Assembly (NCBI RefSeq): GCF_011250635.1
Contig: NZ_JAANNP010000001.1
Location: 514,523-578,522, forward strand
Reading direction: 5' to 3'
Source: Motilibacter deserti
Lineage (GTDB): Bacteria; Actinomycetota; Actinomycetes; Motilibacterales; Motilibacteraceae
DNA length: 64,000 bases
The notes beneath the pieces were generated by a model, which saw nothing but the letters and a program-made list of their open reading frames with translations, ran no database searches and had not been told where the DNA came from. This document shows, in pieces, positions 4,733-32,086 of the stretch; the stretch's first letter is position 1, and each line of letters starts with the position of its first letter. Position numbers and translations under genes: made by a program.

Positions 4733-5596
4733 CTAGTGCGGCGCGACCACGATCCCGAGGACTCCCGGCCCGACGTGCGCGCCGATGACCGCGCCCACCT
4801 CGGTGACCACCAGCCGGCGCAGGCCGGGCATCAGCGCGGGCAGCCGGCCGGCCAGGTCGTGCGCGGTGTCCTCGTCCCCGAGGTGGTGCACGGCGACGTC
4901 CACCTCGTCGTCGCCCGCGTGCGAGACCGCGGCGGCGACCATGCGCTCGAGCGCCCGCGGCCGGGTTCGTACCTTCTCGAACGGCTCGACCTGCCCGTCG
5001 ACCACACGCAGCAGCGGCTTGATGGCCAGCGCCGAGCCGAGCAGGGCCTGCGCGGCGCCGATGCGGCCGCCCCGCCGCAGATGCTCCAGCGTCGGCACCA
5101 TGAACCAGATGCCGGACCGCTCGACCCGCTTGCGCGCGGCCGCTTCCACGTCCCCGAGGGCCGCGCCGGCAGCCGCGGCCTCGGCAGCGGACAGGACCGC
5201 GTAGCCCATGGCCATCCCGAGGGTCCGCGCGTCCAGGACGTGCACGTCGAGCGGTGCGTCCCGCGCGGCGATGCGGGCGGCCTCGAACGTCCCGGACCAG
5301 GTGGAGGAGAGGTGGATGGAGAGGCAGGCGGTGGCGCCCGCGCGCTCGGCCGCCGCGTACGCGGTGCGGAACGCGCGGGGCGTCGGGCTCGACGTGGTCA
5401 CCGACGCCCTGCGCCGCAGCGCGTCCGCCACCTCGCCCGGAGCCACGTCGGGCTCGAAGGACTCGTCGCCGTCGAGGATGACGTGCAGCGGGACGACCGT
5501 GACCCCGGCGGAGGCCACGAGCTCCGCGGGCAGGCAGGCGGTGGAGTCGGTCACGATCGCGACCGACCCGCCCCTTCCGCCCGCCCGGGGAGCCAC
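4733..5596 (-). CDS. DegV family fatty-acid-binding protein
   Basis: 287 aa with the DegV fold: N-terminal VAIVTDSTACLP, the SIHLSSTWSGT segment that contacts the carboxylate of a bound fatty acid, and a C-terminal GAVIGAHVGPGVLG motif. Family members bind long-chain fatty acids; FakB-type members present them to a FakA kinase, which is not in this window. It is the usual actinobacterial neighbour of comEA/comEC and leuS. The gap to leuS is only 7 bp, so co-transcription is likely. Confidence 0.9.
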   Translation of the reverse strand: MAPRAGGRGGSVAIVTDSTACLPAELVASAGVTVVPLHVILDGDESFEPDVAPGEVADALRRRASVTTSSPTPRAFRTAYAAAERAGATACLSIHLSSTWSGTFEAARIAARDAPLDVHVLDARTLGMAMGYAVLSAAEAAAAGAALGDVEAAARKRVERSGIWFMVPTLEHLRRGGRIGAAQALLGSALAIKPLLRVVDGQVEPFEKVRTRPRALERMVAAAVSHAGDDEVDVAVHHLGDEDTAHDLAGRLPALMPGLRRLVVTEVGAVIGAHVGPGVLGIVVAPH

Positions 5597-5603
5597 GAGG
5601 ACG

Positions 5604-8462
5604 TCAGGCGGGGACGACGTTGACCAGCTTGGGCGCCCGGACGATGACCGTGCGGACGCCGCGCTCGCCGAGGGTGCGGCGCACTCCCTCCGTGGCCAGC
5701 GCCAGCTCGCGCAGCTCGTCCTCGGTGATCGACGGTGGCACTTCCAGCCGGTCGCGCACCTTGCCCGCCACCTGGACGACGCACGTCACGGTCTCCTCGA
5801 CCAGCAGCGCGGGGTCGGCCTCCGGGAAGGGCTCGTAGGCGAGCGTCCCCTCGTGCCCGAGCCGCGCCCACAGCTCCTCCGCGACGTGCGGAGCGAGCGG
5901 GGCCAGCATGAGCACGAGCGGCTCGACCACGTCACGGGGAGCCGGGCCACCGCGCTTGGTGAGTGCGTTGTTGAGCTCGATCAGCTTCGCGCCGGCGGTG
6001 TTGAAGCGCAGCGCGGCGTAGTCCGCACGCACCCCGTCGATGACTCGGTGGAGCAGGCGCCGCAGCTCCTCGTCGGCCGGCTCTTCGCTGACGACCGTCG
6101 TGCCGCTGGCCTCGTCGACGACGTTGCGCCACAGGCGCTGCAGGAAGCGGAACGACCCGACGACCGCGCGCGTCTCCCAGGGCCGCGACACCTCCAGCGG
6201 CCCCATCGACATCTCGTAGAGCCGCAGCGTGTCCGCGCCGTAGGTCTCGGCCATCTCGTCGGGCGTGACGCTGTTCTTCAGCGACTTGCCCATCTTTCCG
6301 TACTCACGGTTGACGACCGAACCGTGATACAGGAACTTGCCGTCCTGCTCCTCGACCTCGGCCGCGGGCACGTAGACGCCACGCTCGTCGGTGTAGGCGT
6401 AGGCCTGGATGTAGCCCTGGTTGAAGAGCTTGTGGTACGGCTCGGAGCTGGACACGTAGCCCAGGTCGTGCAGCACCTTGTGCCAGAAGCGCGAGTAGAG
6501 CAGGTGCAGCACCGCGTGCTCGACGCCACCGACGTAGAGGTCGACACCGCCGACCGTGTCGTCCCCGCCCCGCGGCGCCATCCAGTAGCGCTCGTTCTCC
6601 GGGCCGACGACCTGCTCGGTGTTGACCGGGTCGACGTAGCGCAGGTGGTACCAGCACGAGCCCGCCCAGTTCGGCATCGTGTTGGTGTCCCGGCGGTACG
6701 TCTTCGGCCCGTCGCCCAGGTCGAGCTCGACCTCCAGCCACTCGGCGGCGCGCGACAGCGGCGCCTCCGGCATCGACTCCGCGTCGTCGGGGTCGTAGGT
6801 CCGCGGCGAGTAGTCCGAGACCTCGGGCAGCGTCACCGGCAGCATGGAGTCCGGCAGCGGCACGACCCGCCCGTCCTCGTCGTAGACGACCGGGAACGGC
6901 TCGCCCCAGTAGCGCTGCCGGCTGAAGAGCCAGTCGCGCAGCTTGTACGTCGTGGTGCCCGAGCCGGAGCCGAGCTCCTCCAGCCGCGCGATGGCCCGCT
7001 CCTTGGCCTCGACCCGCGACAGCCCGTTCAGGAACTCGGAGTTGATCGTCGCGCCGTCACCGGTGTAGGCGCCGCCCTCGAAGCCCTCCGGCGGCTGCAC
7101 GGTGCGCACGATCGGCAGCCCGAACTTCTCGGCGAAGTCGTAGTCGCGCGTGTCCTCGGCCGGCACCGCCATGATCGCGCCGGTGCCGTAGCCCATGAGC
7201 ACGTAGTCCGCGATGAACACCGGAAGCGGCTTTCCGTTCATCGGGTTGACGGCGTACGTGCCGGTGAACACGCCGGTCTTCTCGCGCGTGTCGGACGTGC
7301 GCTCCTCCTCGGTCTCGCGCGCCGCCCGCGTCCGGTACGCCTCGACCGCCTCGCGCGGCGTGCCGGCCCCGCCGGTCCAGCGCTCGTCGACCCCCTCGGG
7401 CCACGCCCCGGCGACGACCCGCTCGACCAGCGGGTGCTCGGGCGCGAGCACGACGTAGGTCGCGCCGAACAGGGTGTCGGGTCGGGTGGTGAAGACGCGG
7501 ACCGAGGCGCCCTCGACGCCGGAGACGGCGAAGTCGACGTGGGCGCCGTGGGAGCGGCCGATCCAGTTGCGCTGCATCAGCTTGACCGGCTCCGGCCAGT
7601 CCAGCAGCTCGAGGTCGTCCAGCAGGCGGTCGGCGTACGCCGTGATCCGCATCATCCACTGGCGCAGGTTGCGCTTGAAGACGGGGAAGTTGCCGCGCTC
7701 GCTGCGGCCGTCGGCGGTGACCTCCTCGTTGGCAAGCACCGTCCCCAGGCCCGGGCACCAGTTGACCGGCGCCTCGGCGACGTAGGCCAGCCGCTTCGCG
7801 TCCAGCAGCTCGGCGCGCTCGACCCCGGACAGCGCCGACCACGCGCGCCCGTCCGGCGTGGGCCGCTGGCCAGACGCGTACTCCGCCTCCAGCTCGGACA
7901 GTCGACGCGCCTTTCCGGCGTCCTCGTCGTACCACGCGTTGTAGATCTGCAGGAAGATCCACTGGGTCCAGCGGTAGTAGTCCGGGTCGATCGTGGAGAT
8001 CGAGCGGCGCGGGTCGTGGCCCAGCCCGAGCTTGCGCAGCTGCTGGCGCATGGTGGCGATGTTCGACTCGGTCGTGACCCGCGGGTGCTGTCCGGTCTGC
8101 ACCGCGTACTGCTCGGCGGGAAGGCCGAAGGCGTCGTAGCCGAGGGTGTGCAGGACGTTGGCGCCCGCCATGCGCGAGAAGCGGCCGAAGACGTCGGTCG
8201 CGATGTAGCCCAGCGGGTGGCCGACGTGGAGCCCCGAGCCCGAGGGGTAGGGGAACATGTCCATCACGAAGACGCGCGGCCGGTCGTCGACGGGGCCGGC
8301 GAGCGGCCCGACGGGGTTCGGCGCGTGGAAGGTGCCCTCGGACTCCCAGCGGTCCTGCCAGCGCCGCTCGATGTCGGCGGCCAGCGTGGCGGTGTAGCGG
8401 AACGCCGGCAGCGCCTCCTCGACGTCCGCCGTCGTGCCCGGCTGGGTGCTGCTCTGCGTCAT
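5604..8462 (-). CDS. leuS: Leucyl-tRNA synthetase
   Basis: Class Ia synthetase charging tRNA-Leu. The 952-aa protein starts at the ATG at 8462 (MTQSST); the frame is open upstream but that stretch is not protein-like. The HIGH-type motif reads HVGH near residue 77, the KMSKS-type motif reads KMGKS near residue 721, and between them lies the CP1 editing domain with a [12 protein letters not shown] segment. The C-terminal anticodon-binding and LeuS-specific regions are complete. It heads a probable leuS-degV unit. Confidence 0.97.
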
Positions 8463-14956: not shown

Positions 14957-16753
14957 CTACGACAGCGTCGAGACCGCCCGCAGCTGCGCGATCAGCGTCT
15001 CTGCGTCGTCGACGAGTACCGTGCGCACCGAGGGGGCGCCGACCCGGCGCTCCGCGTGCTCGACGAACTGGGTCAGCGCGCGTACGGCCTGCGCCGCGTC
15101 ACCGTCGGCCATCGCGTCCTGCGCCAGGTCGAGCTTGTTGCGCAGGTTCGTCGCGACGCCGCTGCCCAGCGAGGTGCGGAGTCCGGCGACGGCCGCGTCG
15201 AGGTCGGCGACCGCCGGCAGCTGCGGGGTGAGGATGGTGTCGGTCGCGCGGGCGTGCGTGGCCTGCTCGTAGGCGTAGGCGTAGCCGAGCATCTGCGGCT
15301 CGGTGAACGCCTTGCCTAGGAAGGACAGCCCGACGGAGATGCCCGAGGCGTTCTTCCCCGCGGGCACCATGACCTCCGGATAGCCGGACAGGCTGGCGAG
15401 CGCGCTGCCGCTGCCCGTGGCGAAGACGAGGGCGTCGACCCCGTTCGCGTCGATCAGCGCGTCGATGCCGGCGCGCATGGCCGCGGGGCCCTCGGCCACC
15501 GCCTTGAGGTAGTCCGCGTCCTGCAGAGTGCCCCGCGTCGCCTCGCTGCGCAGCCGGTTCAGCACCGACGGCGCCATCCCGAAGCCGGGCTGCTCGCTAG
15601 CCGCGAGCACGTCGGCGTGCGACGTCACCGCGGCGTTCGGGCGACGGCTCTGGAGGTACTCCCCCAGCTGCGTCTTGAACTCGGTCTCGGAGATGAAGGT
15701 GTAGTACTGCCCCTGCAGGGACGACACGGACGAGGGGATCGTGATCCCGTCGACGACCGTGGCACCGAGCCCCTTCAGGGTCTCGAGCGCGGCGTTGATC
15801 GGGGCCGCGTTGGAGCCGGTGACGTACGACCGGACGACCCCGATGCGCTTGCCCTGCAGGGCGTCCGTCCTGAGGAACGTCGTGTAGTCGGCGGGGATCT
15901 TGCCGGCTGCCGCGGCGGTCCGCGGGTCCTCGAGGTCGACGCCGGCGATCGCGTTCAGCGTCAGGGCGCTGTCGGTGACGGTGCGGGTCATCGGCCCGGC
16001 GACGTCGAAGGTGAGCGAGAACGGCACCACGCCCGCGCCGCTGACCAGGCCCATGGTCGGCTTGACCCCGGCCAGCGACTCCGCGCTCACCGGGCCGCGG
16101 ATCGAGCCCAGGGTGTCGCTGCCGACGCTGAGGACGGCGAAGTTGGCGGCGACGGCGGCCGCCGGGCCACCGCTCGAACCCGCCGGCGAGAGGCCGCGGC
16201 CGTACGGGTTGCGCGTCTGGCCGTTGGCCGAGCTGTAGCCGGCCATGCCGCCGTGCGCCCACTCGTCGAGGTTGCCCTTGCCGAGGACGAGCGCGCCGTC
16301 GGCCTTGAGGCCGGCCGTGATCGCCGCGTCCCGCTCCGGCACGGAGCCGAGAAGGGCCTTCGAGCCGGCGGTCGTCTGGATGCCGGCGGTGTCGATGTTG
16401 TCCTTGAGCACGACCGGGATGCAGTGCAGCGGCCCGACCTTGCCCTTGGCCTTCTTGTACTGCTTGTCGAGCGCCTTTGCCTGCTTCATCAGGCCGGGTG
16501 CCAGCGTGACGAGCGAGTTGATCGCCGGGCCGGCGTTCTCGTACGCGGCGATGCGCTGCTGGTAGGCCAGGACAAGGCCCTGGCAGGTGAGCGAGCCGTC
16601 CGCGAACGCAGCGTGGATGTCGGCGACCGTCGTCTCCTCGACCCGGAAGGGCGCGGGAGCGGCCTGGGCGATGCCCGGGACTGCGGCGACGAGAAGGAGC
16701 GGGGTGGCGACGGAGGCGAGCAGGGCGTGCGGAATTCGGCGGGATGGTCTCAA
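14957..16753 (-). CDS. Secreted amidase-signature hydrolase with C-terminal FIMAH-like tail
   Basis: 598 aa with a signal peptide ending at AQAA. The Ser-cisSer-Lys machinery is visible: Lys in VVLKDNID near residue 115, the GSSGG motif near 190, and GSDTLGSIRGP, which departs from the usual GG before the nucleophile-bearing stretch. The catalytic domain runs to about residue 500. The last 75 residues are a helical module (LRTSLGSGVATNLRNKL, then ALTQFVEHAERRVG) like FIMAH domains of secreted actinobacterial enzymes. The substrate is unknown. The gene is preceded by a short 5' region and divergent from the M1 peptidase gene. Confidence 0.88.
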   Translation of the reverse strand: MRPSRRIPHALLASVATPLLLVAAVPGIAQAAPAPFRVEETTVADIHAAFADGSLTCQGLVLAYQQRIAAYENAGPAINSLVTLAPGLMKQAKALDKQYKKAKGKVGPLHCIPVVLKDNIDTAGIQTTAGSKALLGSVPERDAAITAGLKADGALVLGKGNLDEWAHGGMAGYSSANGQTRNPYGRGLSPAGSSGGPAAAVAANFAVLSVGSDTLGSIRGPVSAESLAGVKPTMGLVSGAGVVPFSLTFDVAGPMTRTVTDSALTLNAIAGVDLEDPRTAAAAGKIPADYTTFLRTDALQGKRIGVVRSYVTGSNAAPINAALETLKGLGATVVDGITIPSSVSSLQGQYYTFISETEFKTQLGEYLQSRRPNAAVTSHADVLAASEQPGFGMAPSVLNRLRSEATRGTLQDADYLKAVAEGPAAMRAGIDALIDANGVDALVFATGSGSALASLSGYPEVMVPAGKNASGISVGLSFLGKAFTEPQMLGYAYAYEQATHARATDTILTPQLPAVADLDAAVAGLRTSLGSGVATNLRNKLDLAQDAMADGDAAQAVRALTQFVEHAERRVGAPSVRTVLVDDAETLIAQLRAVSTLS

Positions 16754-29866: not shown

Positions 29867-30149
29867 CGTGCTTCCGCGGACAATGCGTCGTACGAAGCGA
29901 GCTTCCGCCTCGCGTGGCGTCCGCATCGCCCCTTCGACGATGTCGGCCCGCTCCCGTCCGGCCATGCGGGAAGCACCGCCCGCGCGTGGGCCCGGGGGCA
30001 CTGCCGACGAGAACACCCGGGCACAGCCGCGCGATGCGACACTGCCGCTCCTTCGCCGTCCCCGCCCGTTAACGCCGGGAGCACGCTGCCCGCAACATGC
30101 GTCTGATGTGGTCCGAGCGCCCCGACCGCTCCAGCCTCAGCGAGGACGC

Positions 30150-30413
30150 ATGCCTGAGCCCGTGACACCCCCGCCGCCGACCGACGCCGAGCTCGACACG
30201 TACATCCGGACCCGCTACGCCCTGCTGGGCATCGACATCTCCGTGCTTCCCGCGAGCGACCCTGCCGCGGTCATGGACCAGCAGCGCCTGCTCAGCAACG
30301 CCCGCGGGATCCTGCGCACCGAGGTCGCCATCGCGAACGCAGAGATCGACTCCCAGTTCCACCCGCCCGCGCTCTACCCCTCCGCGCTCAGCGCCTGGAC
30401 GCGGGAGGACTAG
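30150..30413 (+). CDS. Small acidic protein, possible GatC/AtzG-like amidase partner
   Basis: 87 aa from an ATG with GAGGA upstream. It starts with a Pro/Thr-rich stretch, has a helical centre and ends with a PPALYPSALSAW tail. It is 2 bp upstream of an amidase-signature gene. Small helical subunits with an extended C-terminus (GatC, and AtzG beside AtzE) wrap around amidase-signature enzymes, so a partner role is a reasonable inference from size, order and coupling. I cannot prove homology by reading. The amidase has a Tat signal and this protein has none, which allows hitch-hiker export. Confidence 0.65.
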   Translation: MPEPVTPPPPTDAELDTYIRTRYALLGIDISVLPASDPAAVMDQQRLLSNARGILRTEVAIANAEIDSQFHPPALYPSALSAWTRED

Positions 30414-30415
30414 CG

Positions 30416-32086
30416 ATGACCGACACCTACCCCGTGATCGCTTCCGAGGCTGCGCCCGTCGACGAGCAGCCGCAGGACGCCACCATCTCCCGCCGTCAGG
30501 TCCTCAACCGGTTCGCCTGGCTCTCGGCCGCCGCGACGGGCGGCGTCGCGCTCGTCGGCCCCGCCGTGACCAGCGCCGCCGCGGCCGCGGCTCCGCGGCC
30601 CCCGATCGTCGACCGGGTACGCCCCGAGGCGCTCGCCGACCCCACCGAGCTGACCATCGCCGAGGCGGTGACGCTGATCCTGCAGGGCCGGCTCCGGCCC
30701 GTCGCCCTCGCCGCGGCGTACCTCGACCGGATCGAGGAGTTCGACGGCGTCTACCAGGCGTACGCGGCCCGGCCCTCGCGCGCCGACGTGCTCGCCGCCG
30801 CAGCGGCCGTCCGCATCGACAGCCGCAACCTGCTGACCGGTGTGGGCCTGGCGCCGAAGGACAACTACTACACCAAGGGGCTCCTCACCGAGGCCGGGTC
30901 CCTCGTCTTCGAGGGGTTCGTGCCCGAGTACGACGCGACCGCGGTGGCCCGCATGAAGCAGCAGGGCGGCGTTGTGCTGGGCAAGGCCCAGATGGGCAAC
31001 CTGGCCGGCGGCCGGGCCACCGTCCCCGGGACCCTGATCCCCACCACCCGCAACGCGTGGACGCCCGACGACGTGAGGTACAGCCCCAGCGGCTCCTCGT
31101 CCGGGACCGCGACGGCGGTGGCCGCCCGGCTGGCGACGAGCGGCATCGGGACCCAGACCGGCGGCTCGATCACCGGTCCCGGCCAGGCCCAGGGGCTGAC
31201 CGCCCTGAAGCCGACCTTCGGCCGGGTCTCGCTGCACGGCGTGGTCCCGCTGACCTTCGTCCGCGACCACCCCGGGCCACTGGCGCGCGACGCCATGGAC
31301 GCCGCGATCATGCTGCAGGCGCTCGCCGGCCCGGACCCGAACGACCCGCGCAGCCAGGGGCTGCCCGAGCCGCCGGACTACATCCGCGCGGCGACGCCGC
31401 AAGGCAGCAAGCGTCCGCGGATGCGCTTCGCCTCGCGCATCGGGGTCTGGCCGGGCTACCTCACCTCCGGCGCGGCCGATGTCCGCGCCCGTCGCGGGGC
31501 GATGGCGCGGGTGCTCGAGGACGTCGGCGGCCGCATGGTCGGCGAGCTCGCGCTGCCCGACGACTGGTCGGTGCTGTCCGGGGTGCTGAACGGCTCGACC
31601 GGCGACCCGACGGCGCCGTTCGTCGAGCACCTGCGCCGGGACGTGCGGCTGTTCGCGGACCGGCTCCCGCGCTTCCTCAACGGGATGCTGCAGAGCGCCG
31701 ACAGCTACCTCAAGGTGCAGCAGGGGCGGCTCCTGCTGCTGCAGCGCTTCCTCGACCAGGTCTTCGACAAGTGCGACCTGGTCCTGGGAGCGCCGAGCGA
31801 CGCGTTCGACGGCACCGGCATGCCGCTGCTGACCTTCCCGATCGGCCTGGTCACGGAGACGACCACGGGGCTGCAGGTGCCGACCGGCGGCATCCTCGGC
31901 GCCCGGCCGTACGGCGAGGAGCGGCTGCTGTCGGCCGTGTCGGCGTACCAAGCGGTGACGGGCTTCCACCTGCAGCGGCCGCCGGACCCGCGGACCGGCG
32001 TCGCTCGTGTCGCACGGGCGGCCGTGGGCCCTCGCGCCGTCACGACCATCGCACCGGTCGGGCTGGAGGCCATCGCGCAGCAGTAG
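30416..32086 (+). CDS. Tat-exported amidase-signature enzyme
   Basis: 556 aa. A twin-arginine motif (SRRQVLNRFAWLS) near residue 26 and a hydrophobic stretch direct export by Tat. The amidase-signature Lys (LAPKDNYYTKG) is near residue 148, and the Ser-cisSer region (YSPSGSSSGTATAVAA, then GIGTQTGGSITGP) near 222-255, so the catalytic triad is intact. Tat export implies folding in the cytoplasm, possibly with the small protein encoded just upstream. The substrate is unknown. Confidence 0.9.
   Translation: MTDTYPVIASEAAPVDEQPQDATISRRQVLNRFAWLSAAATGGVALVGPAVTSAAAAAAPRPPIVDRVRPEALADPTELTIAEAVTLILQGRLRPVALAAAYLDRIEEFDGVYQAYAARPSRADVLAAAAAVRIDSRNLLTGVGLAPKDNYYTKGLLTEAGSLVFEGFVPEYDATAVARMKQQGGVVLGKAQMGNLAGGRATVPGTLIPTTRNAWTPDDVRYSPSGSSSGTATAVAARLATSGIGTQTGGSITGPGQAQGLTALKPTFGRVSLHGVVPLTFVRDHPGPLARDAMDAAIMLQALAGPDPNDPRSQGLPEPPDYIRAATPQGSKRPRMRFASRIGVWPGYLTSGAADVRARRGAMARVLEDVGGRMVGELALPDDWSVLSGVLNGSTGDPTAPFVEHLRRDVRLFADRLPRFLNGMLQSADSYLKVQQGRLLLLQRFLDQVFDKCDLVLGAPSDAFDGTGMPLLTFPIGLVTETTTGLQVPTGGILGARPYGEERLLSAVSAYQAVTGFHLQRPPDPRTGVARVARAAVGPRAVTTIAPVGLEAIAQQ

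Follow-up and report, generated by a model that had tools for sequence, protein, structure and literature searches.

A conserved actinobacterial gene pair of a putative AtzG relative and a twin-arginine amidase, a candidate for joint export by Tat

INTRODUCTION

Among amidase-signature (AS) enzymes that work with a small subunit, the AtzG-AtzE and GatC-GatA complexes are cytoplasmic. According to PMC6219798, AtzG is non-catalytic and forms an obligate heterotetramer with AtzE, which is insoluble without it; the same source regards AtzG and GatC as related. The Tat system exports folded proteins, and signal-less partners are described as riding with a signal-bearing one (PMC4273604, PMC10924467, PMC6719666). 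Recognizing such hitchhikers from sequence is difficult, a point that PMC10924467 makes for one class of them.

Here we analyzed a 64,000-nucleotide stretch of Motilibacter deserti DNA (the window), in which a first-pass annotation had noted an 87-amino-acid (aa) gene ending 2 bp before the gene for a twin-arginine amidase, with the suggestion that the small protein is GatC/AtzG-like and, if the pair folds together in the cytoplasm, would leave the cell with the amidase.

RESULTS

Layout of the gene pair and selection on it

The small gene occupies positions 30150 to 30413 of the forward strand and the amidase gene (556 aa) positions 30416 to 32086 of the same strand; the former ends with a TAG at 30411-30413 and the latter starts with an ATG at 30416, leaving a gap of 2 bp. 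Coordinates and twin-arginine motif, when re-read, were as first annotated. A probable ribosome-binding site for the small gene, GAGGA, was read at 30142-30146 (+), and that of the amidase, probably GGGAGGA at 30403-30409 (+), is embedded in the 3' end of the small gene. Most of 18 relatives likewise carry a GAGG-type stretch before the small-gene start, with no clear one at loci L012, L015, and L026. Across 49 pairs, in which the start codon closest to the stop of the small gene was taken as the amidase start (a choice biased to short gaps), the two genes overlap by 4 bases in 35 pairs and by 1 base in 13, and the M. deserti window pair is the sole one that is spaced (by 2 bases) and not overlapping. 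We infer that translation of the small gene and the amidase is coupled.

Both genes are under purifying selection, dN being lower than dS in 14 of 14 comparisons for each of them, with small-gene dN/dS values of 0.08 to 0.37. The small family retains 6 invariant residues over 29 sequences. Since sequence and position are kept in relatives and dN is lower than dS, the small open reading frame (ORF) is not a chance one. The single annotated record that was read lists the small gene as "hypothetical protein", and no fusion of the small protein with the amidase occurred in the loci read.

The large protein is an AS-family amidase

The 556-aa protein matched the PF01425 profile with 185.8 bits (cut-off, 27) and an E value of 2e-54 over residues 99 to 392, which places it in the amidase-signature family. 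Residues K148, S227/S228, and S251, which we take to be the Lys-Ser-Ser catalytic triad of this family, are invariant in 13 aligned relatives. The predicted model of the amidase was poor (pLDDT 64.3) and served for family look-up only; among its solved relatives are GatA, peptide amidase, and AtzE as well as 6te4 (Tse8), a secreted effector of the AS family.

The stretch GTQTGGS at residues 245 to 251 is the same in 13 of 13 aligned paired amidases (alignment A2), while two GatA alignments have an aspartate there (GSDTGGS and GTDTGGS) and an arginine two residues after the serine. GTQTGGS is a subfamily signature, perhaps linked to the substrate.

A further PF01425 amidase lies in the window at 15287-16576 (-), inside the ORF 14957-16753 (262 bits; L004); it falls outside the paired subfamily and has no small partner. 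Elsewhere in the host genome, two amidase matches (G000:C193:3638-4297 and 5219-5989) share the same open-frame length of 1174 aa and possibly represent two amidase domains in tandem or result from a frame error.

The export motif is on the amidase and not on the small protein

The amidase carries SRRQVLNRFAW at residues 25 to 35, followed by an Ala-rich stretch, and the whole signal region (residues 25 to 56) maps to 30488-30583 (+). With Tat assignment made by motif scan (RRx[FLVIW] within the first 70 residues), the motif was found in the amidases of all 49 pairs. The window amidase thus has the twin-arginine motif and hydrophobic stretch of a Tat substrate, and TatC is encoded in the host genome.

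The small proteins start near a conserved PPTDAELD-type stretch, with no N-terminal extension that could hold a signal in any of the 49 pairs. The best 15-residue hydropathy means reached up to 1.64 for small proteins and went down to 0.94 for amidases, so that the two sets were not cleanly separated; the claim that the small protein lacks a signal therefore rests on layout, by which it holds in 49/49 pairs. The locus accordingly shows the arrangement of a Tat hitchhiker, in which the gene for a Tat protein adjoins that of a partner lacking a signal. Cysteine was absent from all 49 small proteins, compared with 7 of 26 GatC and 5 of 17 AtzG sequences having it, which would fit an exported small protein, albeit as a weak test among related rows.

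The small gene and its amidase occur together

A search with the 87-aa protein (P0001) gave matches in 6 of 60 relatives and in 23 of 393 genomes of the class. Eighteen of the 24 match rows in the class genomes (L009 to L026) directly precede a twin-arginine amidase; the remaining six (L027 to L032; E values of 0.0026 to 0.0092) were rejected as chance, their loci holding no such amidase. When 84,980 named genomes were scanned with alignment A1, 40 loci were obtained, and the small gene stood directly before such an amidase in 40/40. These loci span 14 named actinobacterial genera (including Micromonospora, Jiangella, Kribbella, Actinoplanes, Phytohabitans, Plantactinospora, Actinopolymorpha, Saccharopolyspora, and Pseudarthrobacter), a Streptosporangiaceae metagenome-assembled genome (MAG), a Bifidobacterium-labelled MAG, and two Gemmatimonadetes MAGs. 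Because the named-genome scan relied on one narrow peptide pattern, the true range may be broader.

The reverse search, from the amidase to the small gene, is the stronger test of pairing. An amidase profile (A2, from 13 paired amidases; E value threshold, 1e-90) identified 19 places in 18 of 387 class genomes, every one at 767 bits or more, and profile A3, built from 29 small proteins, matched directly upstream at 19/19 of them. A3 had no match at seven loci of the host genome that hold other amidases (L001 to L006 and L008; 169 to 214 bits with A2), a comparison that covered 7 of its 11 further amidase matches. Among 396 phylum genomes, the A2 profile gave 5 places in 4 genomes with the small gene present at 5/5, and strong matches of the small-gene profile A1 fell in the same 4 genomes. 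The pairing first noted in the window alone thus extends to close amidase homologues in 19/19 class and 5/5 phylum loci, and small gene and subfamily amidase are one-to-one in the genomes searched, with L077 as a possible exception.

Four weak matches in the phylum sample (L077 to L080; E values of 8e-4 to 0.0089) were dropped as chance, as no subfamily amidase lies beside them. L077 (G567:C57:9698-9805) is a short stretch with 22 bits against A3 and may be a chance match or an eroded or lone relative of the small gene. A Rhizobium plasmid match to P0001 (E value of 0.5) was also dropped, since there is no family-like ORF at that place. Viral contigs held one distant amidase only, and plasmid occurrence was limited to one Streptomyces pair. 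The mirror correlation between small gene and amidase was 0.87 over 49 pairs, much of which linkage alone would yield.

One of the pairs (L038, CAMCUD010000005.1) sits on a contig labelled as a Bifidobacterium breve MAG. Its locus GC content of 71.7% is far above that of B. breve, so the species label is probably wrong.

Copies and neighborhood of the pair

The host genome holds a second pair of small gene and Tat amidase on another contig (G000:C253:69516-71428 [-]; loci L007, L015, and L149), with 49% identity to the window pair for the amidase and 47% for the small protein. Phytohabitans flavus likewise has two pairs (L034 and L059). In the amidase tree, the two copies of each genome are split across a branch of 100/100 support (6 versus 43 rows), and the closest small-protein matches of the four copies for the most part respect this division. 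The small-protein groups overlap in identity (lowest value of 0.53 within the smaller group and highest of 0.55 across), the proteins being short. The window amidase groups with the two Gemmatimonadetes MAGs, a placement that hints at transfer.

Over 27 loci compared, the families common to at least 3 genera were the pair, frames overlying the pair, and one 3-locus set, so that the neighborhood points to no substrate. At the Streptomyces plasmid locus (L151:4883-7522), the pair is immediately preceded by a gene for an M14 metallopeptidase. This neighbor may point to peptide substrates; it was not recurrent among the 27 loci.

The small protein is likely kin to AtzG

Database profiles did not name the small family. 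P0001 had no match in Pfam or NCBIfam up to an E value of 10, and a Pfam scan of 14 family members brought up three families, each with a single chance-level match (E values of 0.07 to 0.2). Neither P0001 nor any of the 14 members matched the AtzG-like profile PF13318 at E values up to 10, and the GatC profile (PF02686) was likewise not matched by any of them. By Pfam's letter, the small protein is therefore outside PF13318. When 60 class genomes were searched with PF13318, neither they nor the controls gave a match, which makes this search uninformative on absence.

For direct comparison of alignments, 17 AtzG sequences were collected from plasmids, starting from pADP-1 (5 of the 17 were unannotated ORFs chosen by place and length), and a GatC alignment was built from 26 of 30 loci, leaving out four short ones. 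With hhalign, the small family (48 rows) scored 25.2 against AtzG, compared with at most 13.4 for 100 column shuffles and at most 16.9 for 61 decoys. The decoys were overlapping windows cut from the amidase and AtzE alignments, together with GatC, the top scorer among them. The probability of the AtzG match was 46% and its confident part covered helix 1 (22 columns); in global mode, the score was 12.5 and the probability 1.2%. AtzG and GatC scored 22.5 against each other, and the small family scored 16.9 against GatC, inside the shuffle range (up to 18.4). For a window-like subset of 8 rows, the AtzG score was 24.6, with shuffles reaching 15.6, and the GatC score was 20.4, with 100 shuffles reaching 17.5; some GatC similarity in this subset is expected if the small family, AtzG, and GatC are all related. 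Mean bits against an AtzG HMM were 7.6 for 48 small proteins and 7.1 for 26 GatC sequences, and none of 40 permuted sets exceeded 1.3. These data indicated that the small family has remote similarity to AtzG sequences and no match to the PF13318 profile.

The AlphaFold2 model of the small protein (pLDDT 81.6) has two helices (residues 12 to 25 and 44 to 62) and a loose tail. Foldseek returned no match for it at an E value under 0.001. When the best 48 Foldseek chains were realigned with VIA-align, the AtzG chain 6c62_C came second (65 of 66 residues; Z score of 4.3, a low value given that the protein is small and helical; rmsd of 5.2), below an unrelated phage chain with a Z score of 4.5. No GatC chain was among these 48, which is not counter-evidence to GatC.

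Each piece of evidence is modest; taken together, they make AtzG the relative with the best support, and the small family is likely kin to it. The GatC-like reading was ranked lower, given its lower profile scores and the host genome's own GatC, which adjoins a GatA-type amidase on another contig. Of the GatC/AtzG-like label in the first-pass annotation, the AtzG half is thus upheld by profile comparison and, more weakly, by fold, and the GatC half, scoring below AtzG, less so.

DISCUSSION

The pair is a real, conserved, and unnamed two-gene module of the AtzG-AtzE kind that is probably placed outside the cell by Tat. It is not described in the titles and abstract openings listed by keyword searches of open-licence literature, a body outside which most subscription papers fall. 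We lean towards the reading that the two genes make one exported two-chain enzyme, in which the AtzG-like subunit would bind the folding amidase and leave through Tat as a hitchhiker. The large chain would be the AS hydrolase bearing the twin-arginine signal, and the small chain a remote relative of AtzG, built of two helices plus a long C-terminal tail and produced immediately ahead of the amidase via coupled translation. The small chain would then bind the amidase in the cytoplasm and aid its folding or solubility, as AtzG does for AtzE; if it supports the amidase in this manner, the complex must predate export. Since proteins cross by Tat in the folded state, the bound small chain, having no signal of its own, would exit with the amidase and remain part of the enzyme outside. 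The computation itself establishes the gene pairing, which is well supported, a signal motif confined to one partner, purifying selection on both genes, and a remote similarity to AtzG. From these we infer binding, a need for the partner in folding, co-export, and permanent association; hitch-hiking through Tat is plausible. That this subfamily forms a secreted heterocomplex in which an AtzG-like signal-less subunit hitch-hikes through Tat, the first in its class and an AtzG-type complex outside the cell, has in our estimate about an even chance.

The main rival is a dedicated cytoplasmic chaperone: the small protein might fold or proofread the amidase, or shield its signal, and be released before export. 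A chaperone that stays inside would fit the gene pairing too, and in all 49 pairs the small protein is signal-less and partners only Tat-signal amidases. Tat chaperones of the TorD/DmsD kind, however, are larger than the small protein and not known to be related to it. AtzG, the closest relative of the small protein, is described in PMC6219798 as a permanent subunit. We regard a released chaperone as rather unlikely, if a serious contender.

An inhibitor, immunity-like, that silences the amidase in the cell until it is exported appears improbable. The small gene comes first in the pair and is the constant partner of an exported hydrolase, and the solved relatives of the amidase include 6te4 (the secreted AS-family effector Tse8); kinship to AtzG, however, argues for a supporting subunit, and there is no sign of the amidase being a toxin.

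Very little weight falls on a stable AtzG-like subunit whose complex works inside the cell, with a twin-arginine stretch that is non-functional for export: the AtzG-AtzE and GatC-GatA complexes are indeed cytoplasmic, but the RR motif is kept in 49/49 amidases and TatC is present. Least probable of all is an inert product of a leader ORF whose translation merely regulates the amidase. The coupling-type layout, with a start codon lying across the stop of the small gene in 48/49 pairs, speaks for it; against it stand dN below dS in 14/14 comparisons, the 6 residues that are invariant in 29 sequences, and a two-helix core predicted with confidence.

An unnamed protein family gains a testable role from the module, which also suggests that AtzG-type subunits reach past triazine and oxalurate breakdown. 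Because the candidate rider is linked one-to-one to its carrier in the actinobacteria sampled, the module is a clean hitchhiker case. A plain-hydrolase Tat cargo with a partner of about 90 to 100 aa would also be a simple system in which to study the complex-completeness check of Tat.

Compared with AtzG-AtzE (1-carboxybiuret hydrolase; 6c62/6c6g), the module is alike in layout, atzG also ending 2 bp before atzE in pADP-1, and in the remote profile similarity and loose fold match of the small protein. It differs in that, by motif scan, RRx[FLVIW] is missing from the N-terminal 70 residues of 11 of 12 AtzE sequences (the remaining one has QRRAV), the small family is longer than AtzG and has no PF13318 match, and no neighbor such as atzH recurs at the pair loci. 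GatC-GatA of GatCAB is likewise a small subunit with an AS enzyme and shows weak profile similarity in the window-like subset, but the similarity is lower than that to AtzG and the GatCA complex is cytoplasmic. The peptide amidase PAM (1m21, 1m22, and 5ac3) is an AS amidase with 27 to 28% identity to the window amidase in the Foldseek alignment, from which a peptide-amidase function was considered as a candidate; in contrast to the module, PAM is a single chain that is not known to have a small partner. In the hitchhiker complexes HybO-HybC, PaoABC, and the gamma and alpha subunits of FAD-GDH, one partner with a Tat signal is described as bringing out a signal-less one, as proposed here (PMC4273604, PMC6719666, and PMC10924467). 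These are cofactor-bearing redox enzymes, and in FAD-GDH it is the small subunit that bears the signal; in the module, by contrast, the carrier would be a hydrolase without a known cofactor and the rider its small chain.
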